From an uncultured Eubacteriales bacterium (GTDB lineage Bacteria; Bacillota; Clostridia; UBA1212; CASDQQ01), in contig CASDQQ010000062.1 in assembly GCA_949282945.1 (NCBI GenBank), positions 1 to 34,992 of the forward strand: a stretch of DNA of 34,992 nucleotides, given 5' to 3'. The position numbers and the translations under genes were made by a program. This document shows positions 3,332 through 32,267 of this stretch, in pieces. How positions within the stretch are numbered: the first letter of the stretch is position 1; each line of letters opens with the position of its first letter. The notes under the pieces are model-generated. The model was not told the origin of the DNA, ran no database searches, and was given only the letters and a program-made list of their open reading frames with translations.

Positions 3332-4309
3332 ATGAATAGATTTGAAAGGCTTTTTTTTATACTTGAGAAAAACGATTCGGTTCTGATACCAGGACTTAAC
3401 GATATGAAAGGGGTAGTAAAGATAATACTTACGGCCGATAAAATAAGGGTTATGTCGGAGGTTGGAGGTATACCCGAATCAATGAAAAACTGCTGTGAGA
3501 TATGTATATTTTTTAAAAATAAGTTTGGGGAACATGAACCGCCGATGTTCATTAAGATCAATGGCTGCGGAACAGTGCGTACGGACAACGATTTTCCATA
3601 CAACGGATACGATATATGCGGGGTAGCTTTATGCTGTGATTTAAAAGACGGAGAAAAAAGAAGCTTTCCGCTTGTTTCTTTTAAGGTAAAGCCTGAAGAA
3701 TGGAGGGAGCTTTTAAAGAAAAACGAAAGAAAAAATACAGCCTTTAATGAGATAGAGAAAAAAGAAAAAAACAGTGTAAAAAATTTGGATGAATATAACG
3801 ACTATAAAAGTAAACCGCAAAGCGACGGCGTTTTGAGCGCTGATACGGAAAAAGCGGAGAACCATAGCCAGATGAGTTCAAAAACTGCCGATGAAAATAC
3901 ATATTTTTACGACAGCGCAAAAAGAGAAGAACTTTTACATAAAAATTTTGTGACCTTCGACCCGTTCAACACTACCAATAGTGCGTACAAGTGGTGGAGA
4001 GGAACGGATATGCATGTTGTAAACAGTATATTTACTCAAATAGATATAAAGATACCTTTTGAATTAAATAAAGACGGATACTTATCCTGCGAATTATTCG
4101 GTCATGTTCTGATAGGGTTATATAAGGATAAAAGCCTTAAGAGAGAGTTTTTGATACTTGGAATACCCGCGTCGTGCAAGAGCGATCCCGGAAACTACTA
4201 CTCAAATTCCAGATGGGAAGCGGTATCTTCTAAAAGCGCCACGGGCGAACAGGGTTACTGGCTTACATATATAGACTGCGATACTTCAAAAGTGGTAAAG
4301 GTCATTTGA
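3332..4309 (+). CDS. Hypothetical protein, two conserved-looking ends and a polar linker
   Basis: I do not recognise a named family. Seen: an N-terminal globular region (residues 1-125) with a Cys cluster (KNCCEIC, ALCCD) and alternating hydrophobic strands; a highly charged, low-complexity middle (about 130-195) rich in Lys, Glu, Asn and Ser; and a C-terminal region (about 205-325) rich in aromatics with WWRGTD, GHVLIGLYKDK and GYWLTYID. No signal peptide or membrane segment. The start is fixed by GGAGG at 3318-3322; an ATG at 3325 in another frame stops after four codons. The gene stands alone between tsaD and a terminator. The C-terminal part resembles small domains seen in uncharacterised Clostridia proteins, but I cannot assign a function. 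Confidence 0.85.
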   Translation: MNRFERLFFILEKNDSVLIPGLNDMKGVVKIILTADKIRVMSEVGGIPESMKNCCEICIFFKNKFGEHEPPMFIKINGCGTVRTDNDFPYNGYDICGVALCCDLKDGEKRSFPLVSFKVKPEEWRELLKKNERKNTAFNEIEKKEKNSVKNLDEYNDYKSKPQSDGVLSADTEKAENHSQMSSKTADENTYFYDSAKREELLHKNFVTFDPFNTTNSAYKWWRGTDMHVVNSIFTQIDIKIPFELNKDGYLSCELFGHVLIGLYKDKSLKREFLILGIPASCKSDPGNYYSNSRWEAVSSKSATGEQGYWLTYIDCDTSKVVKVI

Positions 4310-18617: not shown

Positions 18618-18648
18618 GCGGCGTATATGATTTTCGCCGTTTTTTTTA
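18618..18648 (+). terminator. Rho-independent terminator after the TSCPD gene
   Basis: CGGCG (18619-18623) pairs with CGCCG (18635-18639), with an additional G-T pair, followed by eight T. It separates the ireB unit from the large transport operon. Confidence 0.75.
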
Positions 18649-18701: not shown

Positions 18702-18731
18702 TTGACAATTACTGTTTGGGAGAAGTATAAT
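18702..18731 (+). promoter_or_regulatory. Promoter of the seven-gene transport operon
   Basis: TTGACA (18702-18707), 18-base spacer, TATAAT (18726-18731): both hexamers perfect. About 43 bases separate the -10 from the first ATG. Confidence 0.85.
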
Positions 18732-18732
18732 A

Positions 18733-18748
18733 AACTAAATTATTAGTT
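18733..18748. promoter_or_regulatory. Putative operator at the transport operon start
   Basis: Perfect dyad AACTAA-ATTA-TTAGTT directly downstream of the -10, where transcription would start. It uses the same half-sites as the MarR site at 4437 but in reversed order. No regulator gene lies in the operon, so any binding protein is encoded elsewhere. Confidence 0.5.
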
Positions 18749-18774
18749 CTATTATTATCAATGAGGTGGATTGT

Positions 18775-21700
18775 ATGTGCAATACTAATTGTTCGAAGCC
18801 TAACGCTTTAAGAACTTATATGATTGTGTTTTTGGCTGTGGCAATCGCGCTTACGTCTATGAACGTCAGTGTATATGCCGCGCCGGGAGCATCTCTTTCA
18901 GACAAAGTTCAGGAAAGTATAGGCGGAAGCACGGAAGAAGAGGATGAGTTTATTCTTTCAAGTGAAACCTATTATCCTGATTACATCGCTCAGAAGGATT
19001 CGGAAGGATTTACAGATTATAAAGGAGAAGATGTAGATGTTTCTTTAGGTACTGCGAAGCTTCCCGATGGATTTAATGCAAGCGATTATTTGAAGGATAA
19101 ATATTTAGCGGAAGAGCTTAATGAAGAATATTCCGGAGAATTTTTCGTATGGGACAACAGCGACGTCAGATGGGTAGAGTTTAGCGTCGATATAAAAGAA
19201 AAAGGGTATTACAATATTGAAATCGAATATTATACTCCAACAGGTTCTGTACAGACTCCGCAGCGTTCACTGAATATAGACGGTCAACTTCTTTTTACCG
19301 AGTCGGTGACGGTTGATTTCAGCAGACTGTGGAAGGATTCCACTCCTGTAGATAAGGAACATATGATACTTAATTCCATAGGGGATCAGGTAAGGCCTAA
19401 ACAGGAGCAGGTATTCGGACTGAGAACAATGAGGATCAACGACCATGACGGAAAGTATAATAACCCGTTAAAATATGCGTTGGATGAAGGCTCTCACACG
19501 ATTAAATTTTTATATCAATATGAAGACATTGTCATAAAGAGCATAAAGCTTGTAGCTCCGGAGGAAATCCCTACATATGAAGAAAAGCTTGCCGAGTGGA
19601 AGAGCAACGGAGCCAAAGAAGCTACAGGAACAATCAGAATAGAGGGTGAGGCAGTAACTTATAAGTCAGATTCTTCTCTCAGAGTTGATGCTTCATCTGA
19701 CCCGGTAGCTTATCCGAGTTATGAAAATGGGAGTACAAGGCTTAATGTTATCGGTGGGTCTACATGGGCGGCTTCCAATCAGACGCTTACTTGGAGATTT
19801 AAAGTAGAAGAATCCGGACTTTATAAGATCGTTCTGCGTGCGTATGCAAAGTATACGGACGGTATTCCTGTTTATAGGCAGGTAAAGATCAACGGCGAAG
19901 TTCCATTTAAAGAGTTTGAATGCTATGAAATAGCTTTTGATGACTGGAATTGCTTTGCTCTGGAAGATGGAGGCGAGGCGCTTCTTGTTTATCTTGATGC
20001 CGACAGGGAATACAATGAACTCCAACTTACCGTTAAGCTCGGAGAGATAGCCGAGATAATGAATGCTCTTGAGGTTGACGCAAACAGACTTTCTTCTCTT
20101 GTTAAGGATATTACAAAGATTACAAGTACAAATCCTGATCCTAACTTTGAATATAATCTTGAAGATAAGATACCTAATCTTGTAGAGAGATTTCAGCAGA
20201 TATCAGATAGTTTCGGAGAACAGATAGACAGAATATCCGGGCTTTCTTCAAAAAGACCTTCTGCTGTCAATAACTTTATAATGATGCAGGAACAGATTGA
20301 CAGGATGATCGCCAATACAGAAATCATAGCTAAAAACTATTCTTCACTTACCGACGCTATGACAAACCTTTCTACATGGATAAAGAACTTTGCAAGTCTT
20401 CCTATGCAGATAGATTATATTGAGTTTATACAGCCTGAGGCTGAGGTTGAAGTGGTTGTTTCAAACATATGGCAGAAACTTTCAGCGGCATTCGTGGCGT
20501 TTATGGTTTCCTTTACAAAAGATTATGACAACGTAGGAGGAAAGGCCGGAGTAGATGGAGAGGAAGCTGTTACTTTACAGGTTTGGATATCCAGAGGTAA
20601 AGAATGGGCTGAGATATTAAAACAGTTGGCTGATGAAGAGTTCTATACTGAGAAAAATATATCGATAAATATGAATATCTTGCCTAGCGGACAGCTTAAT
20701 GCTTCTGCAAGCAGCGTTCTTTTACTTGCGCTTGCTTCAGGGACGGCTCCCGACGTTTGTCTGGGTGTTGCGTCCAACCTGCCAGTGGAGTATGGTATGC
20801 GTGACGCTATTTATCCTTTGACAAACTTCGGAGAAGAATTTGATGAAGTTAAGAGCAGGTTCCTGGACGGTATAATGATTCCTTTCTATTTTAAAGGTGA
20901 TTATTACGGGCTGCCTGAGACAATGGATTTCCAGTGCCTATATTACAGAAAAGATATTTTGAGCGAGTATAATCTTGAGATACCGGATACATGGACTGAT
21001 GTATATACAAAGATACTTCCTGTTCTTAATAATAATGGTATGGACTTTTATTACGCCGGAGGCTATAATCCGTTCCTTTTCCAAAATGGAGGAACTTACT
21101 TTAAAAATGACGACAAAGAGTCTGCGTGGGATTCCCCTGAAGCCGTTACCGGATTTAAACAGTGGACAGATTTGTATACTATATATGATATACCTGTAAC
21201 TGCCGATTTCTACACAAGGTTCAGATCAGGACAGATGCCTCTGGGAATTGGCGGAATAGATGTTTACACTAAGCTTGTGTCAGCTGCTCCTGAAATTTCA
21301 GGTAAGTGGGGCGTTGCTTCTATACCTGGAACAATGCAGGCTGACGGCGAAATCAACAGAGCCGCCGGAGGAGGCACTACTGCGTGTATCATATTAAATG
21401 ACAGCGATAAGCATGCTGAAAGTTGGGAATTCCTAAAGTGGTATACCGACGCGGATACTCAGGTTTCATATGCCAATGATATAAAATCTATAATAGGTCC
21501 TGAAGCCATATGGGCCTCGGCGAACGTGGAAGCTTTCAATGATCTGCCATGGGATGCCGAACTTAAAGATGTTATCGAGGAATACCAGAAATGGTATCAG
21601 GACGCTCCTAACGTAGTGGGCGGATATATCGTTGCAAGGTATCTTGAAAATGCGCGTGTTGCTGTTGTAGTTAACAGTGAACCATACAGGCCTTCATTGG

Positions 21701-21807
21701 AAAAAGCTGTTAAAGAAATAAACCGTGAGTTAGAGCTTAAGAACGCGGAGTTTGAACGAAGAGAAAAAATAGAAGCGGAAAAAGCTGCTCAAAATAATAA
21801 TGAATAA
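18775..21807 (+). CDS. Large extracellular solute-binding protein with carbohydrate-binding-like N-terminus
   Basis: Secreted 1010-residue protein. Order: signal peptide (about 1-34, hydrophobic MIVFLAVAIALTSM, possible SPase I site after VYA, no lipobox); a beta-sandwich-like region (about 120-275); a second one (about 285-420, with FKVEESGLYKIVLRAY); a helical stalk (about 422-595); then a family 1 solute-binding domain (about 598-975) starting TLQVWISRGKEWAEIL, with ASGTAPDVCLG, YGLPETMDFQCLYYRKDIL and WEFLKWYTD; and a charged helix tail. The sandwiches look like CBM6/35-type sugar-binding folds, by pattern only. ATG 18775 has GAGGTG 6 bases upstream; GTG 18766 lies inside that SD. Ordinary binding proteins are about 450 residues, so this is more than twice the normal size. 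Confidence 0.9.
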   Translation: MCNTNCSKPNALRTYMIVFLAVAIALTSMNVSVYAAPGASLSDKVQESIGGSTEEEDEFILSSETYYPDYIAQKDSEGFTDYKGEDVDVSLGTAKLPDGFNASDYLKDKYLAEELNEEYSGEFFVWDNSDVRWVEFSVDIKEKGYYNIEIEYYTPTGSVQTPQRSLNIDGQLLFTESVTVDFSRLWKDSTPVDKEHMILNSIGDQVRPKQEQVFGLRTMRINDHDGKYNNPLKYALDEGSHTIKFLYQYEDIVIKSIKLVAPEEIPTYEEKLAEWKSNGAKEATGTIRIEGEAVTYKSDSSLRVDASSDPVAYPSYENGSTRLNVIGGSTWAASNQTLTWRFKVEESGLYKIVLRAYAKYTDGIPVYRQVKINGEVPFKEFECYEIAFDDWNCFALEDGGEALLVYLDADREYNELQLTVKLGEIAEIMNALEVDANRLSSLVKDITKITSTNPDPNFEYNLEDKIPNLVERFQQISDSFGEQIDRISGLSSKRPSAVNNFIMMQEQIDRMIANTEIIAKNYSSLTDAMTNLSTWIKNFASLPMQIDYIEFIQPEAEVEVVVSNIWQKLSAAFVAFMVSFTKDYDNVGGKAGVDGEEAVTLQVWISRGKEWAEILKQLADEEFYTEKNISINMNILPSGQLNASASSVLLLALASGTAPDVCLGVASNLPVEYGMRDAIYPLTNFGEEFDEVKSRFLDGIMIPFYFKGDYYGLPETMDFQCLYYRKDILSEYNLEIPDTWTDVYTKILPVLNNNGMDFYYAGGYNPFLFQNGGTYFKNDDKESAWDSPEAVTGFKQWTDLYTIYDIPVTADFYTRFRSGQMPLGIGGIDVYTKLVSAAPEISGKWGVASIPGTMQADGEINRAAGGGTTACIILNDSDKHAESWEFLKWYTDADTQVSYANDIKSIIGPEAIWASANVEAFNDLPWDAELKDVIEEYQKWYQDAPNVVGGYIVARYLENARVAVVVNSEPYRPSLEKAVKEINRELELKNAEFERREKIEAEKAAQNNNE

Positions 21808-21823
21808 GGAGGGGAGACAATAA

Positions 21824-22783
21824 ATGAGTTCTGGTGAAAATATTATTGAAAATAATAGTATAATTAAGGGCGGTTCCAAACCAAAGAAGAGACAGCGTCT
21901 TGGACACTCGGTAAAAGATGTTACAATTGCGTGGGCTTTCTTTCTCCCATTCTTTATAGTATTTATAGTATTTACGATTGTTCCGGTGGTAATGGCCATA
22001 TACCTGAGTTTAACGAATTATACGGTTTTACAGGACGCGATCTGGGTAGGCCTTGATAATTATATATATCTTATAACCTCAGATAATACATTTATAACGG
22101 CAATGCAAAATACCTTTGCTTTCGCTATATTATCCGGACCTATAAGTTATTTCATGTCTTTTATAATGGCGTGGGTCATAGACGGGCTGAAGTTTAAAAA
22201 CGTTTTCTCATTAGCGTTTTATGCTCCGTCTCTGGCAAGTGGTATAGCCATGAGTTCTATTTGGTTAGTATTTTTTGCAAATGACAGTACCGGTCATTTG
22301 AATAAGCTGCTCCTTGATCTGGGATGGATAACATCCCCGATACTTTGGACGCAAACCCCGGCTTACATACTTCCTATAGTTACTATAGTATCTGTTTGGA
22401 TGGGTATGGGTAACGGATTCCTGGGTTTCCTTGCCGGGTTTCAGGGCCTTGACAGGCAGGTATTTGAATCGGGAGCTATCGACGGTATAAGAAATAAGTA
22501 TCAGGAACTTATATACCTTATATTGCCAATGATGAAGCCTATGCTTCTTTACGGCGCTATTAATACTATAACCGGATCTTTGGGAATATTTGATATAGTT
22601 GTCAATATTGCCGGATTCCCCGGGCCTGATATGGCCGGCCTTACTATAGCCGGACATTTGAACGACTATGCGTTTACAAGATTTGATATAGGTTATGCTT
22701 CTGCGATAGCTGTTATATTGTTTATCATAACCTTTATTTTAGGAAAGATAGTATTTAAAGTCTTGGGAACTAAGGATGAATAA
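21824..22783 (+). CDS. Carbohydrate-type ABC permease, UgpA/MalF-like (pair 1)
   Basis: Inner-membrane permease of 319 residues, starting with a cytoplasmic polar tail (residues 1-33) followed by six hydrophobic segments. The ATPase-contact EAA loop reads FESGAIDGIRNKYQELIYLI, with ESG in place of the usual EAA. It lies 16 bases after the binding-protein gene and 12 before its partner. It should form a heterodimer with the next gene product and use an ATPase encoded elsewhere, as none lies in the operon. Confidence 0.92.
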   Translation: MSSGENIIENNSIIKGGSKPKKRQRLGHSVKDVTIAWAFFLPFFIVFIVFTIVPVVMAIYLSLTNYTVLQDAIWVGLDNYIYLITSDNTFITAMQNTFAFAILSGPISYFMSFIMAWVIDGLKFKNVFSLAFYAPSLASGIAMSSIWLVFFANDSTGHLNKLLLDLGWITSPILWTQTPAYILPIVTIVSVWMGMGNGFLGFLAGFQGLDRQVFESGAIDGIRNKYQELIYLILPMMKPMLLYGAINTITGSLGIFDIVVNIAGFPGPDMAGLTIAGHLNDYAFTRFDIGYASAIAVILFIITFILGKIVFKVLGTKDE

Positions 22784-22795
22784 GGGGGGATTATT

Positions 22796-23668
22796 ATGGC
22801 GAGTATTAGAGTAGGAAAGAGAATTGTTATATTACATCCCGGAACATTCTTTAAGTATGTTTTTATGATAGCTTTGGTTTGCTTTACTGCACTTCCTCTG
22901 GAGTTTTTGGTGGTTCAGGCATTCAAACCGCTTGATGAGCTTTTCATATATCCTCCGAGATTTTATGTTGTAAATCCTACGCTGAAAAATTTCAGCGAGC
23001 TGCTTATGGCGATGGACGGCTCTACTGTTCCATTTACAAGGTACTTCTTTAACAGTGTAGTTGTAACTATTTTGACGGTTGGAGGTACTCTTTTGGTATG
23101 TTCATTGGCGGCGTATTCACTTACAAAACTTCCGCTTACGTGGAAAAATCAAATATTTAATGTAATAGTAGCTACGTTAATGTTCAGCGCTCCTGTTACT
23201 CAGATTTCTAACTATCTGATCATTAACTCGCTTGGTTGGGTAAATACTTATTGGGCGCTCGTGATTCCAAAGTTGGCTACTCCGATGTACTTTTTCTTGT
23301 TAAAGCAGAACTTTGACTCGGTTTTGCCGAATCAGCTTCTTGAGGCTGCCAAGATAGACGGAGCTAACGAATGGAAATCTTTCTGGAAGATTGCTATGCC
23401 TATAATGAAGCCGGCATGGTCTACGGTCATAGTATTTTCCTTTGTTGCTAACTGGAATGACTACAGCGGACCGTTGGTATACATAAACAGAGAAGCTTTA
23501 AAGACATTGCCTCTTGCTCTTTCACTGCTCCAGGGTGGTTTGGGCCAGGTGGCTCGTACAGGTGCGTTTAACGCCGCAGCGCTAGTTACTACGGCGCCTA
23601 CGATAATAGTTTATCTTGTAATGCAGGCTAAGGTTATGAAGACCATGGCTCATGCAGGTATTAAATAA
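22796..23668 (+). CDS. Carbohydrate-type ABC permease, UgpE/MalG-like (pair 1)
   Basis: Membrane permease of 290 residues, the second half of pair 1. The canonical EAA loop is LEAAKIDGANEWKSFWKIAMPIMKP. Six hydrophobic segments, with the usual cytoplasmic start and a short C-terminus. SD GGGGGGA sits a few bases upstream. The clean EAA motif here, compared with the altered one in its partner, suggests uneven ATPase contacts. Confidence 0.93.
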   Translation: MASIRVGKRIVILHPGTFFKYVFMIALVCFTALPLEFLVVQAFKPLDELFIYPPRFYVVNPTLKNFSELLMAMDGSTVPFTRYFFNSVVVTILTVGGTLLVCSLAAYSLTKLPLTWKNQIFNVIVATLMFSAPVTQISNYLIINSLGWVNTYWALVIPKLATPMYFFLLKQNFDSVLPNQLLEAAKIDGANEWKSFWKIAMPIMKPAWSTVIVFSFVANWNDYSGPLVYINREALKTLPLALSLLQGGLGQVARTGAFNAAALVTTAPTIIVYLVMQAKVMKTMAHAGIK

Positions 23669-23686
23669 GGAAAGGAGGATATAAAA

Positions 23687-25906
23687 ATGAAATTTAGTAA
23701 AATATTTAATTTAGCTGTTATCTTTCTTATCCTGCTTTCCGTTTTAATGGGAGCGGTTCCTGTTTCGGCTGATTCGAATTATTCATATTATTTGCCGTCA
23801 AGCGGCGGAATGAGCGGAGGATTTAGTATTCCCCTTGCTTACGAAACTACTAAAACTATAACTTATATCGAAGGTTTGGATTCTCAGATGAGTATGCCTT
23901 CAGATCTGTTCCTTTCGGAGGATGGATATATTTTTGTAGTGGATAAGAATAACGCGAGAGTTCTTAAGATAACTAAAGATGGAGAGTTGGTGGCCAATTA
24001 TGACGGTCTTTACGGAGAGTATGATGACGAGACTTATAATCAGAAAATTGCAGAAATAGACGAGGCCTATGCAAGAGGGGAGTTTGACGAGACCGAATAC
24101 AGGCACAGAAAAAGAGTTGTAGACGCGAGAAAGATAAGGAAGATGAATCAGCCTGGAGGCGTGTATGTTGATAGCGAGGGAGATATATTTATTGCGGATA
24201 CTAATAACGCGAGAATTTTACACCTTTCTCCGGAAGGAGAGTATGTAGAAATGTTTGTTGAGCCTGAATCGGATACTTTCGACTATGAAGATCATCCGTT
24301 CCAGCCTTATAAAGTATATGTAAATTCCGTATATAACATATATGTAATAAATTTCGCTGATTACCACGGATTTATCACTCTGGATGCCAATAATACGTTT
24401 TTAGGATATGTTGCCGCGTCAAAAATCGATTATGATTTTTGGTATAATGTTCAGAAGTTTATATATTCTAAAGAGGTCATGGAGATGATCGAGGCCAGAA
24501 CAACTCCGCCGTATTTTTCCAACTTTGTAATTTCAAAATATGACAGCCTTATATATGCGGTAGCGGAAAATGATAAAAAAGATCAGATCAAGAAACTTAC
24601 CCCGGCAGGAAATAACGTATATCCAACCGGAGTATACGGAAGTACCGGTATTGACCAGAGCGGAAAAGGTACATTCGCGTCTTTTAAAGATATAGCGGTT
24701 GGAAATACCGGACTTGTGTATGCGGCTGACGGAGCTACAATGGAAATATATATATATGATTCTGAAGGAAGCAGTGTTGCCGTAATCGGAGGACAGGGAA
24801 ACTATAAGGGAACATTTGGAAATATAAGCGCGATAGATATAGATTCCGATTCAAACCTTTATGTTCTTGATCAGGAAAAAAATACTATACAGGTAATGGA
24901 GCCTACCAAATTTATGCAAAAGGTAATGGAGGCGTCGGCTCTTTATTCTGACGGTAAATACGCAGAAGCTCTCAGTCCGTGGGAAGAGGTTTTAAGTATG
25001 CATAATACCTATTCTCTGGCGGTAAGAGGTATCGCAAAAGCTAAGTACGGAGAACTTGAGTATACTGAAGCTATGGAGCTTTACAAGTTGGCTTTGGACA
25101 GAGAGGGATATTCAGACGCTTACTATGAATACAGACTGGATTATTTCAGAGAGCATTTTACTGTAGTGGTGATCATTATAATATTGGTCGTAGTAGCTGT
25201 TATCCTTCTTATAGGGTATTTAAGAAGACTTTCGGCTAAGGTCGATCTGGTATACGACTATTCAAAGGATAAATATGGTATAAAAATATTTTTCCATACA
25301 TTGATATTAGTCATATTCCATCCTATTGACGCTTTTAATAAATTAAAGGCGAACAGAGACCGGTATAAGATATGGTCTATTGTAGTTATGATATTTGCGA
25401 TTCTGGCAGTAAGGATAGCATATATTTATTTGGTGCATTTCCCTATGTCCAGTCAGATACCTCAATATACGGATTTACTTCAGGAAATTATCGTTTACTT
25501 GCTTCCTTTGGCGGCATGGGCTATCGTGGGATTCGCGATTACCTCCATATCAAACGGCAAAACTAAGTTTAAAGAAACTTGCGTATCAGTTCTGTTCGCA
25601 TTTTCCCCGTATATTTTGTTCACATTGCCTTTAGGTGCCTTGTCAAATATTTTGTGTACAAATGAGATCGGTCTGTATGTAGGCTTGCAGACTATAATAC
25701 TGCTGTGGTGCGTAGCTCTTGAGTTATTGGCTCTTATGAATCTTAATGAATATTCATTTAAGGAAATGGTAACAAATACCATCAAGATCCTGTTTGCTAC
25801 GGTATGTATAGTTTTGTTGGTAGGTATGTTCTATATCATAGTAGATCAGTTCTTCATCTTTATCGAAGAGATAAATATGGAGCTTGTGTATATGAGTAGA
25901 CGATAG
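23687..25906 (+). CDS. NHL beta-propeller / TPR-like / Yip1-type membrane protein
   Basis: Unusual 739-residue architecture. Signal peptide or N-terminal anchor (1-28, VSA before DS); NHL-type repeats from about 55 to 406, with blades such as PSDLFLSEDGYIFVVDKNNA and PGGVYVDSEGDIFIADTNNA; a TPR-like segment (about 409-480, ASALYSDGKYAEALSPWEEV); a very hydrophobic helix (about 490-513); and a Yip1-type domain with about five membrane helices (530-739, starting HTLILVIFHPIDAFNKLK). The propeller would face outside while the Yip1 part sits in the membrane. SD AAAGGAGG upstream. It lies between permease pair 1 and the DUF5696 gene. Probably a scaffold or glycan-contacting partner of the transporter; function unknown. 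Confidence 0.85.
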   Translation: MKFSKIFNLAVIFLILLSVLMGAVPVSADSNYSYYLPSSGGMSGGFSIPLAYETTKTITYIEGLDSQMSMPSDLFLSEDGYIFVVDKNNARVLKITKDGELVANYDGLYGEYDDETYNQKIAEIDEAYARGEFDETEYRHRKRVVDARKIRKMNQPGGVYVDSEGDIFIADTNNARILHLSPEGEYVEMFVEPESDTFDYEDHPFQPYKVYVNSVYNIYVINFADYHGFITLDANNTFLGYVAASKIDYDFWYNVQKFIYSKEVMEMIEARTTPPYFSNFVISKYDSLIYAVAENDKKDQIKKLTPAGNNVYPTGVYGSTGIDQSGKGTFASFKDIAVGNTGLVYAADGATMEIYIYDSEGSSVAVIGGQGNYKGTFGNISAIDIDSDSNLYVLDQEKNTIQVMEPTKFMQKVMEASALYSDGKYAEALSPWEEVLSMHNTYSLAVRGIAKAKYGELEYTEAMELYKLALDREGYSDAYYEYRLDYFREHFTVVVIIIILVVVAVILLIGYLRRLSAKVDLVYDYSKDKYGIKIFFHTLILVIFHPIDAFNKLKANRDRYKIWSIVVMIFAILAVRIAYIYLVHFPMSSQIPQYTDLLQEIIVYLLPLAAWAIVGFAITSISNGKTKFKETCVSVLFAFSPYILFTLPLGALSNILCTNEIGLYVGLQTIILLWCVALELLALMNLNEYSFKEMVTNTIKILFATVCIVLLVGMFYIIVDQFFIFIEEINMELVYMSRR

Positions 25907-25917
25907 GAGGCGAAAAA

Positions 25918-28659
25918 ATGGCAAAAAAATTATTTATATGTTTACTTTCTATAATTTTGGCATTTTCTGTGATGCTTAGTTCTCTGGTCGTTTTTGCTGA
26001 TGAGCCTGTAGGGGATGAACCGGGAGAAACCGAAGGTTCTGAAACAACAGGTACGGAGGGAGAAGGGTCTGAAGGTGGAGAATCCTCGGAAGAAACCGGA
26101 ACAAATGGACCGGCTCCGAATAATAACGGAGCTTCAGAGTCTCTGGAAGGTTTTAAGCTTGTATCTCCTGATGATGATGCAAATGAAAATCTTGATTTAT
26201 ATTTTAATCAGGAGGAGATTGCTTTTAAGATTGCTCAGAAAAATTCTGCCGGAGAGATTGTGAAGGTTTGGAGCTCTCAGCTTTTACCTTCTGATCTGGG
26301 ACTTTCAAAGGATTTGTCTTTGGAAGAAAAAAAGAATGTTTATGCTTATGACAGACGAAGTATGTCTTTGCTTGTTATAGACTACGTTAACCTGGGTAAT
26401 ACTGTAAACCCAAAAGAGATTACAACAACTTCTTATGAGGAAGAACATTTTATCGTTGATGAAGCAGTAACAATGACCGGAAAAGGAGTAAGCTTTAAGA
26501 TATCTTTCCCGAGGCTTAATATTATAATACCGATATGTGTTGAGGTTGACGGACAAGAGCTTAACGTAAGAATTCCAAAAGACGGATTTTTTGAAAACCT
26601 TGAAGGCGCCGAAGAAGTTTTGGAAGCCGATGAGGAAATGAATAGACTTATTGATGAAATAAATACTATGATCGTTAGGGTTAAGAAATATTTCAAAGAT
26701 AGGGATGAGAAGAAATATGTAGAAAACAGGTTTTCCGGTGTCACACAGAATCTTGATACTATTAAAGAATACGTAATGACCGGTTCTGAGAACAGAACGG
26801 TGACTCCGCAGGATATAATAAACGCTATTACGACTATTGAAAGAGATTTTGAAAGACGAGAATATTTTTCAACCTATGAGGGGCTTAAAGAAGATACAGA
26901 AGAAATAGCCAAATTGGTTGATGAATGTATGGCGGCTTATAATATTATTGCGTCAGAGGTTACTTATGGGGTTTACTCCCTGGAAGTTATGCCTTTTCTC
27001 GGTGCTGGAACGATTACAGAAGAAGGGTACGCTTTTTATCCTGATGGAGCGGGAGCTATATCATACTTTAATGTAACTCATCCTTCTTTGACAGGTTATT
27101 ATTCTCAGGCGATATATATGGATCATGTTTTTAATCTTCAGTATATGTATGAATCGGATACAGTTTCCTGGAATCCAGCTTTATACCCTGTTTTCGGCGT
27201 AAATAAGGGAGACTATGGATTTGTAGCTATAATTACTGAGGGAGATTGCGACGCGTCCATAGAATATTGGCCGGGAAATAAAGATTATGTACTCGGAAGA
27301 GTTTATTCGATATTCATGTACAGACATAAGAGTAAGTACATAAGAGATTCCGCGACTTACGATATGTATGAGACAGAAAGATTGGATTATGACAGAAATA
27401 TAAAATATGTGTTTTTACAGGGCGAAGACGCTGAGTATTCTGGAATGGCTAATGCCTATAGAGAGTATCTCAAGGAAAATGATCTGATCAACGACGCTAT
27501 TGCGGACGGAGAAGAAATTCCCCTGGCCGTAGATTTTCTTGCCGGAGTTAAGGAACAGGGAGTACTGTGGGAAACTACCATAGATATGACTACTTATCAG
27601 CAAATCAAGGATACTCTTGAGAGACTCAGACAAGATGGTATAAAAGGAAAAATTTACAGCAATATACATGGTTGGACAAAAGCGAATTATAATCCTGATC
27701 CTCTTAATGCCGACGGAGCCTTAGGTGGCAAAAATGATCTTATGGATCTTACAGAGTACGCAAAAGAAAACAACATTATTTTGGGGCTTGCGTTCAATCC
27801 GGTTTTTGCGACCAAGCAGTATGCTACAGGAGAACAGGTAAATAAATATATGGTTCGTGATAGTATAGGAATGCTCGTAAATTATGAAGAAAGAAGATAT
27901 GTTTTCAGCCCTAAATATATACAGGAGCTTTATGCTGAAAAGCTTATTGAAAAAATTGGCTCTTACGGAGCAAATGCCGCTCAGATAAATTCCATAGGAT
28001 ATTATCTCTACTATGATTACAGTAATGTGTATGGATTTACTTCGAGGGTAGATACAGCAAAGGCGTTTTCCGAAGTAGCCAGAATATCCAATGAGAAGCT
28101 TGGTTATTCTTCGATAGCTAACGGTAATATGTATATGTGGAAGTACGCTACAAGAATTGATGAAATGCCTCTAAGCGATCTTGAGTATTTGTTCTCTGAT
28201 ATGTCGGTACCGTTTTTACAGATGGTTCTCCATGGGAGCATAGCGTACTCCGGAAGCTATCCGTACAATGTAATGTACGATGATAAAAAGCAGATGCTTG
28301 AGTATATTGAATTCGGTTGTATGCCTTACTTCTTCCTTACTCAGCGTTCGATGGGGGATATGGCTTTTTCAAATGCCACCTACAGCTATGACTGGCTGTA
28401 TTCTTCTGACATTGGAACCTGGTACGATGATGTAATTGAAGTTTATAATGAATTTAACGATAATGTAGGTTATCTTTGGAGTCAGGAGATTGTGAAGCAT
28501 AATCAGCTTTCTGACGGGATCAAACGTGTAGAGTATACTGACGGAAGCGTAATTTATATAAATTACAATGAAGCAGAGGCTGAATTTACTGATCCCTACA
28601 GCAATGAAACAGTAAAAGTAGATGCACAGTCGTATATCGTAAGAAAGGGGGCGGCGTAA
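25918..28659 (+). CDS. Secreted DUF5696-type protein
   Basis: 913 residues. Signal peptide (1-27, cleavage likely after VFA), an acidic Gly/Ser/Thr/Glu linker (about 29-75), a beta-rich domain (80-230), a helical insert (about 234-341), then the part I recognise as DUF5696, including VMPFLGAGTITEEGYAFYPD near 355. The C-terminal half (about 530-800) alternates helices and strands and has a barrel-like feel (GKIYSNIHGWTKANYNPDP, NNIILGLAFNPVF), reminiscent of glycoside hydrolases, but I cannot identify catalytic residues. No lipobox or LPXTG anchor. SD AGGAGG upstream. Function unknown; a glycan-binding or glycan-cleaving role is inferred from context. Confidence 0.85.
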   Translation: MAKKLFICLLSIILAFSVMLSSLVVFADEPVGDEPGETEGSETTGTEGEGSEGGESSEETGTNGPAPNNNGASESLEGFKLVSPDDDANENLDLYFNQEEIAFKIAQKNSAGEIVKVWSSQLLPSDLGLSKDLSLEEKKNVYAYDRRSMSLLVIDYVNLGNTVNPKEITTTSYEEEHFIVDEAVTMTGKGVSFKISFPRLNIIIPICVEVDGQELNVRIPKDGFFENLEGAEEVLEADEEMNRLIDEINTMIVRVKKYFKDRDEKKYVENRFSGVTQNLDTIKEYVMTGSENRTVTPQDIINAITTIERDFERREYFSTYEGLKEDTEEIAKLVDECMAAYNIIASEVTYGVYSLEVMPFLGAGTITEEGYAFYPDGAGAISYFNVTHPSLTGYYSQAIYMDHVFNLQYMYESDTVSWNPALYPVFGVNKGDYGFVAIITEGDCDASIEYWPGNKDYVLGRVYSIFMYRHKSKYIRDSATYDMYETERLDYDRNIKYVFLQGEDAEYSGMANAYREYLKENDLINDAIADGEEIPLAVDFLAGVKEQGVLWETTIDMTTYQQIKDTLERLRQDGIKGKIYSNIHGWTKANYNPDPLNADGALGGKNDLMDLTEYAKENNIILGLAFNPVFATKQYATGEQVNKYMVRDSIGMLVNYEERRYVFSPKYIQELYAEKLIEKIGSYGANAAQINSIGYYLYYDYSNVYGFTSRVDTAKAFSEVARISNEKLGYSSIANGNMYMWKYATRIDEMPLSDLEYLFSDMSVPFLQMVLHGSIAYSGSYPYNVMYDDKKQMLEYIEFGCMPYFFLTQRSMGDMAFSNATYSYDWLYSSDIGTWYDDVIEVYNEFNDNVGYLWSQEIVKHNQLSDGIKRVEYTDGSVIYINYNEAEAEFTDPYSNETVKVDAQSYIVRKGAA

Positions 28660-28660
28660 A

Positions 28661-29605
28661 ATGACTGCAGCAGAGGTAGCGAATAAACCTGAAAAGGTTA
28701 AAAAGGTTAAGCAAAAAAAGCCTGCCAGACATAAAAGAGGCTTTAGTCTTGAAAAGAGAAGAGCCGCGGCGGGATATGTATTTGTTTTGCCTTTTATAAT
28801 AGGTTTTATAATATTTATGCTTTATCCGTTGGTAAATTCCATTATTTGGAGCTTGGTTAACGGTCACGTAGGCGTAAATCCAGAAACAGGCAAAGGCGGA
28901 TTTATAATAGACGCTTTTGTCGGATTAAAGAATTATGAAACGATTATCGGTACAAACGTTGAATTTGCAACCGCGTTTTTGGATACCATACAGAGAACTT
29001 TTATATGGACTCCCTTCATAATTGTTTTTTCATTGTTTATAGCTATAATGCTTAATACTAAAATAAGGTTTAGAGGGGTTTTCAGAGTTATATACTTCCT
29101 TCCCGTGCTTTTGGGAACTGGTCTTGTTTTCGCTAAGCTCAGCCCCGTAACGGAAATGCTCGCAATTCCGGAAGAGCTTACCAGAACATTGGCTTATCTT
29201 ATAAATAACGGAGAGGTAGCGACGTTCCTTAATGACCTGCTTGCGGATATGATCTCTATTTTCTGGAAAACGGGTGTGCAGATTGTAATTTTCCTGTCAG
29301 CTCTTCAGGGAATTTCCGAGTCTCTTTATGAAGCGGCCAGGGTTGACAGCGCAAATAGTTGGGATATGCTGTGGAAGATTACTATACCGATGCTCTCGCC
29401 TATGATTCTTTTGAATACGATCTATACTATAATAGATTCATTCAGAGATTCTTCAAACCCTATTGTTGCGTTTATTCTCAGACAGTATGAACTTGCCGAA
29501 TGGACTAATCTTACCGCCATGGGGTGGATGTACTTTATAGTTACTTTGATTCTTTTGGGAATTGTATTTGCTGTTACAAGGAGGTTTGTATTCTATGAAA
29601 AATAA
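28661..29605 (+). CDS. Carbohydrate-type ABC permease, UgpA/MalF-like (pair 2)
   Basis: Permease of 314 residues that starts one base after the DUF5696 stop. A Lys-rich cytoplasmic tail (residues 8-40) precedes six hydrophobic segments. The EAA loop is LYEAARVDSANSWDMLWKIT, with DSA in place of DGA. A long extracytoplasmic stretch between the first two helices (NGHVGVNPETGKGGFIIDAF) is polar and may contact a binding protein. It overlaps its partner by 11 bases. Confidence 0.92.
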   Translation: MTAAEVANKPEKVKKVKQKKPARHKRGFSLEKRRAAAGYVFVLPFIIGFIIFMLYPLVNSIIWSLVNGHVGVNPETGKGGFIIDAFVGLKNYETIIGTNVEFATAFLDTIQRTFIWTPFIIVFSLFIAIMLNTKIRFRGVFRVIYFLPVLLGTGLVFAKLSPVTEMLAIPEELTRTLAYLINNGEVATFLNDLLADMISIFWKTGVQIVIFLSALQGISESLYEAARVDSANSWDMLWKITIPMLSPMILLNTIYTIIDSFRDSSNPIVAFILRQYELAEWTNLTAMGWMYFIVTLILLGIVFAVTRRFVFYEK

Positions 29606-30626
29606 AATAAAAAATGATAATAAGCCGGAAAAGAAGAGTAAGGCAAATAGTTCTGAAAAGAAAAATGAAAAGAAAGTGAAAGTAAGCAGCTTTCCTTCTA
29701 TATCTATTTTAAAAAGTGACTTGGCATTTAAGGTCAAGGTTCAGCTGATATGGAGAAGATGCAAAGGCAGCTTGTTTAAGATTCCGATATATTTTATGCT
29801 GATAGCAATGTCTTTTGTATTCCTGCTTCCTTTTGCATATATGATCTTGAGATCCATGATGTCTAATACTGACTTGCTGAATGCCACTATGGTTAAGTGG
29901 CTTCCGCGAACCATAGATTTTAAGAATTATTCTTATGCTATCATATCACTGGACTATTGGAATAAGCTTTTTACTTCGGTATGGACTACCGGAATAGCAG
30001 TAGTGGCTCAGTTGATTTCTTGTACTTTTATAGCTTACGGATTGGCAAGAATTAATTTTAAAGGCAGAGGATTTATTTTTGGATTGGTAATCTTTACTCT
30101 CATAATTCCTCCTCAGGTAACTATAGCGCCTACATATATAATGTTTTCGCCTAACGGTATAGTTAACTGGCTTGATACGTTCTTACCTATAATAGTACCT
30201 TGTTTCTTTGGAATGGGTTTAAGCGGGGGTCTGTTTATATTCATATACCGTCAGTATTTCAAGGGCATGCCTGCGGAACTTGAAAACGCGGCGCTCATAG
30301 ACGGCTGCGGAATATTTGGGTCTTATTTTAGGATTATTTTGCCTAATGCGAAATCGCCTATGCTCGTATCGGTTATATTGTCCATGGTTTGGCAGTGGAA
30401 TAACTATTTTGAACCTTCCATATTTATAACTGATGTTGTAAATAAAGGTAATTTGCCTATGCAGCTTAACGTTATGTCACAGAACCTGGGCGTTTTAGGA
30501 AATAAGATGAATTCGGCTACTGAAATGGCGGCTACTTTCCTGGTTGTTTTACCTATTATTTTGGTATTCTTCCTCGTTCAGAACCAGTTTATGAAAGGTA
30601 TCGAAAGAGTTGGTCTGGCCAACTAA
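29595..30626 (+). CDS. Carbohydrate-type ABC permease, UgpE/MalG-like (pair 2)
   Basis: Permease of 343 residues. The start is ATG 29595, which has AAGGAGG at 29578-29584; the longer frame from 29562 has no SD. An unusually long basic N-terminal tail (about 60 residues, rich in Lys, Asn and Ser) precedes six membrane helices. The EAA loop is LENAALIDGCGIFGSYFRII. It ends the operon, just before a terminator. Together with the preceding gene it forms the second complete permease pair, although the operon encodes only one solute-binding protein. Confidence 0.92.
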   Translation: MKNKIKNDNKPEKKSKANSSEKKNEKKVKVSSFPSISILKSDLAFKVKVQLIWRRCKGSLFKIPIYFMLIAMSFVFLLPFAYMILRSMMSNTDLLNATMVKWLPRTIDFKNYSYAIISLDYWNKLFTSVWTTGIAVVAQLISCTFIAYGLARINFKGRGFIFGLVIFTLIIPPQVTIAPTYIMFSPNGIVNWLDTFLPIIVPCFFGMGLSGGLFIFIYRQYFKGMPAELENAALIDGCGIFGSYFRIILPNAKSPMLVSVILSMVWQWNNYFEPSIFITDVVNKGNLPMQLNVMSQNLGVLGNKMNSATEMAATFLVVLPIILVFFLVQNQFMKGIERVGLAN

Positions 30627-30656
30627 ACGGAGCAGCAGAATTTTTAAAAATTTTTT

Positions 30657-30690
30657 AAGACAGAATAAAACATGTTTTATTCTGTCTTTT
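30657..30690 (+). terminator. Terminator closing the transport operon
   Basis: A perfect 32-base palindrome at 30657-30688 (arms AAGACAGAATAAAACA and its complement), AT-rich, with T at 30687-30690 and further T after one C. A hairpin this long should terminate despite its low GC. No clear promoter was found in the remaining 50 bases before the next gene. Confidence 0.75.
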
Positions 30691-30737: not shown

Positions 30738-32267
30738 ATGTATGAAGAATTGCCAAGATCAAAGGTAAAAGTAACTGAACTTAAAGAAATCAAATCAACG
30801 GATATGACAGGAGCCGAGGCTGCTATGATCGCTACTCTTCAGGGATTGATAGCAGATAAGACTGATAAGAGAATTTTTATAAACTGTAAACGAACAGATT
30901 GGTCTTTGCAGGATCTGAAGGAAAATCACGGAGTTTTGGTAAAAAATGTTAAATGCCCGTGGGAGCTTATTAAAGAATATAAAAGTTACATAAAAGGATA
31001 TATTCTTTATTCGGGGGATTGCCCGGACTACAATCCGGACGCTGAGCTTGATTATGACCCCAATGCTGACGAATCTATAAATGTGGCAAATACTATAGCT
31101 CCTTTTTATGATGCCGTAATTGTTGATCAGTCCATAGAGGAAAAGGCCAAAGAAGCGGGGCTTAATATGCTCGTTGATGTGAGCGGCAAAACAAGTGAAT
31201 GGACGCTGGAGAACTATTGGGATAAATTAAACCATGATTTGGTGGTAGAGGTATTTCCTCAATTAAAAATGTTTTTAAGGGACTACGCTTATATGACGAA
31301 AGCTCTTGTATTTCATAACAGAGGCGGAAAAGGTTCGCTGAGGGAAAAGATACTTTCTGGAATGAATATAAACGGAGTATTAATGGGATGGTCTGATTCA
31401 GACAGAGGAGAGCTCGGTTATATAAGCGAGGCTTCAACTTATGGGATAGCTACTATACCGAGCGACTGGTCGCCTAATATAAGTGTATTGAGCGGATTCC
31501 CCAAATGGGATGCCAGGCAGTGGAAAAGAAATCCGGTCAAGGCTGAGGAAAACGTGCATTATGTTTCAATTTTAATGTCAGACGGAGATAATGAACAATG
31601 GGTGCTGAACGATCTTCTTACAGACAGAAAATGGTATAATAACGATTATAAGGGACAATTCGACATGGCCTACGCAATGCCGCCATATCTTTATGACCAT
31701 GCACCTACGCTTTTGGAAAAGCTTTATAAGACGGCCGCGAATACTGAAAAGGGTCAGGATCAGTTTGTGGTGGGACCGTCAGGATGCGCGTATATGTATC
31801 CTTCGATGTATCCTGAAAAGAAGCTTGACGCTCATCTTGACAGACTTAATGACTATATGAAAAAAACGGATACTCATGTAGTAGCTATAATAGACGATAA
31901 AGTTTTTGACCGGATGGATATCTGGGATAAATATACGGAAAAGTCTGAGGTTACCGGACTTATTTATCTGGATTATTCAAAACATTCAAATTATTCTGGA
32001 GAAATACTGTTTTCTAATGGAAAGCCTGTAATTTCCTGCACAGATCTTCTTTGGGAGGGGCTTACCAAGGACGAAGAGGTAATTGAAAGAGTGAACAACG
32101 GTTCTACAGATATAACTTCCAGAGCGGCCTACTCATTAATATATGTTCATGCGTGGAGTAAGGATATGGACGATGTGGCCAATATGGTATCTAAGTTTAA
32201 TGAAAATGTAAGAATCGTAAATCCGGAACAGTTTGTGGAGCTGATAACAAAGAATGTTAAAAGATAA
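30738..32267 (+). CDS. GxGYxYP domain protein, putative cytoplasmic glycosidase
   Basis: 509-residue protein of the GxGYxYP family (putative glycoside hydrolases). The N-terminal domain contains the family's helix (TGAEAAMIATLQGLI) followed by RIFI. The C-terminal domain has HYVSILMSDGDNEQW and the naming motif region at about residue 355, here GCAYMYP, with Ala for the second Gly. There is no signal peptide, so it is probably cytoplasmic. SD CGGAGG is 12 bases before the ATG. It follows the transport operon but also overlaps the radical SAM gene by 14 bases. I infer that it processes an imported substrate; activity is unproven. Confidence 0.85.
   Translation: MYEELPRSKVKVTELKEIKSTDMTGAEAAMIATLQGLIADKTDKRIFINCKRTDWSLQDLKENHGVLVKNVKCPWELIKEYKSYIKGYILYSGDCPDYNPDAELDYDPNADESINVANTIAPFYDAVIVDQSIEEKAKEAGLNMLVDVSGKTSEWTLENYWDKLNHDLVVEVFPQLKMFLRDYAYMTKALVFHNRGGKGSLREKILSGMNINGVLMGWSDSDRGELGYISEASTYGIATIPSDWSPNISVLSGFPKWDARQWKRNPVKAEENVHYVSILMSDGDNEQWVLNDLLTDRKWYNNDYKGQFDMAYAMPPYLYDHAPTLLEKLYKTAANTEKGQDQFVVGPSGCAYMYPSMYPEKKLDAHLDRLNDYMKKTDTHVVAIIDDKVFDRMDIWDKYTEKSEVTGLIYLDYSKHSNYSGEILFSNGKPVISCTDLLWEGLTKDEEVIERVNNGSTDITSRAAYSLIYVHAWSKDMDDVANMVSKFNENVRIVNPEQFVELITKNVKR

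Follow-up and report, generated by a model that had tools for sequence, protein, structure and literature searches.

A conserved cassette of two ABC-importer modules with Yip1 and DUF5696 partners, predicted to serve glycan uptake, in an uncultured Eubacteriales bacterium

The window, that is the whole stretch of 34,992 nucleotides that was analyzed, contains at positions 18702-30688 seven tightly packed genes with a perfect 12/12 promoter in front and a terminator behind. Since the deduced proteins include two permease pairs, a very large binding protein (SBP) and two further extracytoplasmic proteins, the locus raises the question of what kind of transport system is encoded here. In the initial annotation, the seven products were regarded as one surface machine that binds, perhaps trims and imports a complex carbohydrate. 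The features of the locus are the following:

18619..18647, plus strand: upstream terminator-like stem-loop (CGGCG/CGCCG, 11-nt loop, T run), read from the sequence
18702..18731, plus strand: sigma-A-type promoter TTGACA-18-TATAAT (12/12 match, 18-bp spacer)
18733..18748, no strand assigned: dyad AACTAA-ATTA-TTAGTT, directly 3' of the -10 box
18775..21807, plus strand: SBP of module 1, 1010 aa (Pfam, structure model)
21824..22783, plus strand: permease A1 of module 1, UgpA/MalF type, with EAA loop (NCBIfam UgpA similarity)
22796..23668, plus strand: permease B1 of module 1, UgpE/MalG type, with EAA loop (Pfam BPD_transp_1)
23687..25906, plus strand: NHL-TPR-Yip1 protein of module 2 (Pfam NHL and Yip1)
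25918..28659, plus strand: DUF5696 protein of module 2 (Pfam DUF5696, 1.5e-127)
28661..29605, plus strand: permease A2 of module 2, UgpA type, with EAA loop (Pfam BPD_transp_1)
29595..30626, plus strand: permease B2 of module 2, UgpE type, with EAA loop (Pfam BPD_transp_1)
30657..30688, plus strand: intrinsic terminator with a 14-bp stem (terminator scan)
30738..32267, plus strand: GxGYxYP putative glycoside hydrolase (PF14323, 8e-68; 3sgg, E 4e-73)

The promoter is the only perfect match in the 35-kb window, with 0.03 such matches expected from shuffling. The frame of promoter, dyad and terminator that had been described around the seven genes was located completely, and the dyad represents a possible operator, for which the evidence is weak because its arms comprise only 6 bp. 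The spacing given in the initial annotation, with gaps of 1-18 bases or overlap, agrees with the measured intergenic gaps of 16, 12, 18, 11 and 1 nt and an overlap of 11 nt between the two last genes. Two start codons were reassigned: the list of open reading frames gives a GTG at 18766 for the SBP gene and a TTG at 29562 for the B2 gene, and the ribosome binding sites GAGGTGG at 18763 and AGGAGG point to the ATG codons at 18775 and 29595, respectively. The upstream neighbours are of housekeeping type (mtaB, ruvX, a DUF1292 gene and a TSCPD gene), the last of these being closed by the stem-loop at 18619-18647, the loop of which exceeds the length range of the terminator scanner. Downstream, the GxGYxYP gene, which is absent from the initial annotation of the operon, is followed by a TIGR03960 radical SAM gene. 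Searching the window for Rfam families and tRNAs yielded no hits. At positions 3332-4309 of the window, a 325-aa open reading frame without Pfam match is located between tsaD and a marR-ABC exporter gene set.

The conservation of this gene set was examined in two scans. A search for DUF5696 proteins that made no use of gene order gave matches in 43 of 58 related genomes, and the flanks of the matches were scored with the window proteins and thereafter with HMMs made from the first set. In the second scan, an alignment of permease B1 was compared with named bacterial genomes, which resulted in 80 loci. Among these, L115-L118 and L120-L150 were discarded as unrelated generic permeases with a low HMM score and no cassette, and the whole gene set was present at all loci where B1 scored high and the flank was sufficient. 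After the removal of duplicates, 103 loci hold all seven genes, and the order SBP-permease-permease-NHL/Yip1-DUF5696-permease-permease on one strand was found in 103 of 103, with median gaps of 5, 2, 12, -4, -4 and -8 nt. In these loci the neighbourhood of the Yip1/NHL and DUF5696 genes with the two permease pairs is strictly conserved, and the earlier suggestion of similar gene sets in other Firmicutes proved to be strongly right, with some spirochaetes in addition. Taxa with the cassette include Lachnospiraceae MAGs, Butyrivibrio proteoclasticus, Thermobacillus, many Paenibacillus, Neobacillus and Treponema/Spirochaetaceae MAGs. Moreover, pairwise distances computed for each of the seven proteins are correlated with one another (Spearman coefficients 0.58-0.77), a range that includes the effect of shared phylogeny. 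At one locus (L084:4150-20822) the usual order is present, yet several cassette genes are separated by about 1-2 kb with extra genes between them. When 120 high-completeness genomes were sampled evenly across the phylum, a DUF5696 match was present in 13 and exceeded the family cut-off in nine of these, so that the family is widespread but patchy.

Open-access full-text literature contained no description of the seven-gene set as a system, and queries for DUF5696, or for Yip1 together with NHL, SBP/ABC or Paenibacillus permeases, returned nothing relevant from open-access publications. The view that the complex is undescribed thus held within that literature, and the fixed two-module cassette with its Yip1 and DUF5696 partners appears to be undescribed as a system.

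The operon is composed of two separable ABC-importer modules that are nearly always joined, a reading that follows from the occurrence of each module alone. Module 1 comprises SBP-A1-B1, and module 2 comprises Yip1-DUF5696-A2-B2, often along with a second SBP. Module 2 occurs alone at about ten loci of small genomes (L233-L237, L241-L243, L245 and L252) and is often followed directly by a second SBP gene; this count excludes L032, which lies at a contig end, and includes L242, where unrelated permeases are present further downstream. Module 1 occurs alone at two loci of such genomes, L254 and L256, and some of the half cassettes adjoin genes of the GH106, GH43 or GH3 type. Since the two sets are found apart, a single machine of seven parts, as assumed in the initial annotation, is not forced by the data. 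The solitary modules are also consistent with two independent importers that are merely co-transcribed and take up different oligosaccharides from one polysaccharide without forming a joint complex, and either permease pair, with its EAA loops, has the appearance of a complete heterodimer. The order and packing kept in 103 of 103 complete loci, including genomes with 14 or more copies, and the position of the Yip1 and DUF5696 genes between the two permease pairs speak against independent importers. We consider this alternative possible and give it a substantial minority chance.

The permeases of the two modules are paralogues, with 26% identity between A1 and A2 and 25% between B1 and B2. The EAA loop of the family consensus is kept in all four; Pfam BPD_transp_1 recognizes three of them, and A1 was assigned instead by its similarity to NCBIfam UgpA (9e-16). 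A second SBP gene is located within 2 kb of the cassette in 63 of 114 full loci, and a gene for a MalK-type ATPase is present upstream in 22 of the 114, such an in-cis ATPase being frequent in Paenibacillus. The operon of the window has neither an adjacent second SBP gene nor an ATPase gene. Accordingly, the gene set of the initial annotation stands with respect to the seven conserved members and is incomplete for other genomes, in which a second SBP often belongs to it and, in Paenibacillus, an ATPase as well. The only OB_MalK ATPase in the draft genome of the window, a MAG of 84% completeness, is encoded by an orphan gene on contig C44 (L156:367-1521) and is most similar to the cassette ATPases of Paenibacillus. 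The same draft genome yielded nine BPD_transp_1 matches, four counted for the operon, one pair belonging to Pst and three singles on contigs C95, C14 and C65; a further permease pair of the sugar type was not identified in this 84% complete sequence. A lipoprotein-like SBP (SBP_bac_8) is encoded at the end of contig C144 (L155:8465-9784) after a response regulator gene, and this protein may be the missing second SBP.

In the giant SBP, the SBP_bac_1 domain (PF01547, 2.5e-23) covers residues 614-899 and is preceded by an N-terminal extension of 600 residues. The structure model (pLDDT 87) consists of two beta-sandwiches, helices and a C-terminal MalE-like domain; the beta-sandwich domains gave weak CBM35/DUF5077 matches, and the C-terminal domain is closest to oligosaccharide-binding proteins (Foldseek matches 5ci5, 9xf5 and 5yse). 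The protein of the window has a signal peptide and no lipobox. In general, the giant SBPs begin with a signal peptide or with a hydrophobic anchor at the N terminus, and a lipobox is rare among them (2/32), in contrast to the two clusters of neighbouring second SBPs, where it is present in 24/30 and 31/36 proteins. The next gene product of the extracytoplasmic type, the NHL-TPR-Yip1 protein, has a signal peptide followed by an extracytoplasmic NHL propeller, TPR-like helices and a Yip1 membrane domain. Of its three originally named parts, NHL and Yip1 were confirmed by Pfam matches, and TPR is read from a helical segment that has no Pfam match. The protein is specified by one gene in 74 of 114 full loci and by two adjacent genes, for the NHL part and the Yip1 part, in the other 40.

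The AlphaFold2 model of the DUF5696 protein (pLDDT 79, pTM 0.80) shows a TIM-like barrel between two beta domains, one N-terminal and one C-terminal, with DagB (5opq, E 1.2e-30) and NagBb (5wzr, 3.7e-26) as the best matches among solved structures. By sequence, the DUF5696 family profile matches DagB (8rzk, 3e-17) and NagBb (2e-11) as well, and the Pfam GH129 model PF11308 has no match in the window's own genome. We take the aspartate at D435 of NagBb and D486 of DagB to be the nucleophile. A catalytic Asp at this position is common to GH129-like enzymes, and DagB lacks the second catalytic residue of NagBb, yet is active (PMC5698469). The respective positions were compared after aligning 113 operon DUF5696 proteins with four stand-alone short DUF5696 proteins and four proteins matching the GH129 model. 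Asp occupies the nucleophile position of GH129 in 14 of 113 operon proteins, or in 33/113 if the offset is chosen most generously, 11/113 have the acid/base Glu and 1/113 has both; the protein of the window carries Asn or Ser at the nucleophile position. The GH129 controls and the short DUF5696 proteins together have the Asp in 8/8 and the Glu in 7/8 cases, the eighth, a control, being shifted by one column.

The operon proteins possess conserved acids of their own, which are in the numbering of the window D700 (101/113), D761 (93/113) and E798 (108/113). D700 was considered as the GH129 nucleophile and rejected, as the corresponding residue is Cys in three of the four GH129 controls and likewise in all four short DUF5696 proteins. 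The three residues could nevertheless form a rewired active site, and along with the complete GH129-like fold, the sequence similarity to active GH129-like enzymes and the variation of the second catalytic residue even within that group they speak for an enzyme that is active outside the cell and, as a member of a new GH129-like glycosidase family, trims the glycan prior to its import. The counts given above, with both residues rare in operon proteins and kept in the controls, argue against such an enzyme, and we regard it as rather unlikely. Since the operon DUF5696 proteins have not conserved the catalytic residues of GH129, which the stand-alone ones keep, a glycan-holding subunit is more likely than a trimming enzyme, a judgement drawn from an alignment at about 20% identity. 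The trimming that had been suggested earlier is therefore disfavoured for DUF5696. The stand-alone short DUF5696 proteins (565-585 aa; L066:1087-2787, L067:7007-8761, L068:4332-6026 and L069:9243-10958), with both GH129-type catalytic residues kept, look, on the same comparison, like an uncharacterised family of active glycosidases.

With respect to the substrate, the flanks of the relatives' loci encode many glycoside hydrolases and pectin-degrading families (among them GH2, 3, 5, 9, 10, 26, 28, 31, 35, 36, 43, 53, 66, 95 and 106), and additionally pectic lyases, esterases, sugar oxidoreductases and LacI/GntR/AraC or two-component regulators; these scans represent a listing of families and not a test of enrichment against background. 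The flanking gene sets differ between loci and do not indicate a single substrate. The carbohydrate import beyond one SBP and two permeases that was initially proposed is supported by the conserved neighbourhood and by these glycan-degrading neighbours. At the window locus a putative glycoside hydrolase is located downstream and no regulator is adjacent: the GxGYxYP gene starts 49 nt after the operon terminator. It was rejected as a conserved eighth member since none of the first 40 relative loci has a homologue in its flanks, and its product is a possible functional partner enzyme in the genome of the window only. Elsewhere in this genome, beside pst genes on contig C35 (L158:45-2660), a large protein is encoded whose sequence looks like that of a beta-galactosidase with a LamG-like terminus.

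The cassette is multiplied in some genomes. P. thermotolerans (L100) has 14 DUF5696 matches, all 14 of which were examined and are full cassettes, and P. eucommiae (L098) has 15, of which the 13 examined are full cassettes, giving at least 13; matches to the giant SBP are about as numerous as those to DUF5696 in both Paenibacillus genomes. Three genomes of 2.2-3.0 Mb (G155, G176 and G194) contain at least nine scored DUF5696 matches each, a high share for genomes of such small size. Most genomes of the order to which the window belongs have one full-length DUF5696 protein and few recognizable glycoside hydrolase neighbours of the cassette. Together with the lack of another identified sugar-type permease pair in the organism's draft genome, this would fit a general or housekeeping importer, for instance of envelope-derived or cross-fed glycans, to which the hydrolase neighbours found elsewhere are secondary. 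The 14-15 copies with diverse glycoside hydrolase and pectinase neighbours in other lineages and the GxGYxYP putative hydrolase adjoining the window operon argue against this explanation, which we consider improbable.

The best explanation overall, with a probability of about 60% in our estimate, is a glycan uptake system of two CUT1-type ABC-importer modules that is equipped with holding subunits and relies on separate hydrolases. In this system, module 1 with the secreted SBP and the permease pair A1/B1 and module 2 with the NHL-Yip1 membrane protein, the DUF5696 surface protein and the permease pair A2/B2 would serve the uptake of an oligosaccharide or polysaccharide. Glycan chains would be held at the membrane by the giant SBP and by the DUF5696 protein, whose catalytic site would be degenerate, a role that may be likened, by analogy, to that of the surface glycan-binding proteins of Bacteroidota PULs, and the propeller arm of the Yip1 membrane protein would scaffold DUF5696 beside permease pair 2. 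A single ATPase of the MsmX/MalK type, namely the C44 orphan, would power all four permeases in trans. Oligosaccharides or longer chains would be imported, and hydrolysis would be left to separate, locus-specific glycoside hydrolases. Both the assembly of all seven products into one complex and the nature of the substrate are points that we infer.

The transporter core is a CUT1-type ABC importer, and what appears to be new, as judged from open-access literature, is the combination of two modules in a fixed cassette along with Yip1 and DUF5696 proteins. Known CUT1 importers with a shared ATPase, such as MsmEFGK, MalEFG-MsmX and UgpABCE, resemble it in the MalE-like SBP domain, the MalF/G-type permeases with EAA loops and the separate MalK-type ATPase, whereas the cassette adds a second permease pair, a giant SBP with N-terminal beta-sandwiches and the fixed NHL-Yip1 and GH129-like subunits. 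CUT1 importers usually have one permease pair, although this is not strictly defining; two pairs were found in 103 of 103 complete loci, in separable modules. A MalK-type ATPase with OB/TOBE domains is provided in trans by the C44 orphan, which presumably serves the operon. In comparison with GH129 and GH129-like enzymes (NagBb 5wzr, DagB 5opq), the operon DUF5696 proteins share the three-domain fold and a detectable sequence similarity, but their catalytic positions are not conserved and they are encoded inside a transporter operon. The gene at 30738 belongs to the GxGYxYP family (BT2193), which occurs in Bacteroides PULs (PMC4071793) and is not part of the conserved cassette. The gpPULs, exemplified by the MLG locus of Blautia producta, combine ABC transporter genes, regulators and glycoside hydrolases as do many of the relatives' loci; they are said to lack surface glycan-binding proteins, and the B. 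producta locus has one SBP/permease set (PMC10318527), whereas the window encodes a two-module cassette of fixed composition that includes candidate proteins for holding glycans. The likeness to SusCD of Bacteroidota, an analogy only, lies in a core cassette that is multiplied per genome beside differing sets of glycoside hydrolases. In contrast to SusCD, the cassette involves no outer membrane, TonB transporter or SusD and predicts ABC-type import across the cytoplasmic membrane; accordingly, Pfam detected no TonB-dependent SusC or SusD lipoprotein domains in the seven window proteins.

A bolder proposal, which we regard as doubtful, is that the seven proteins form a double-channel complex for polysaccharide capture and import in Gram-positive bacteria, a counterpart of SusCD in which a former GH129 glycosidase would grip the glycan on a Yip1-anchored propeller scaffold and the copies would have diversified for plant and host glycans. 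The holding and import of large glycans are poorly defined in Gram-positive gut and soil bacteria when compared with SusCD. The fixed and multiplied cassette provides a genomic marker for glycan loci of Firmicutes and offers a candidate, open to testing, for the binding of glycans at the surface, a function that is said to be missing from gpPULs (PMC10318527).
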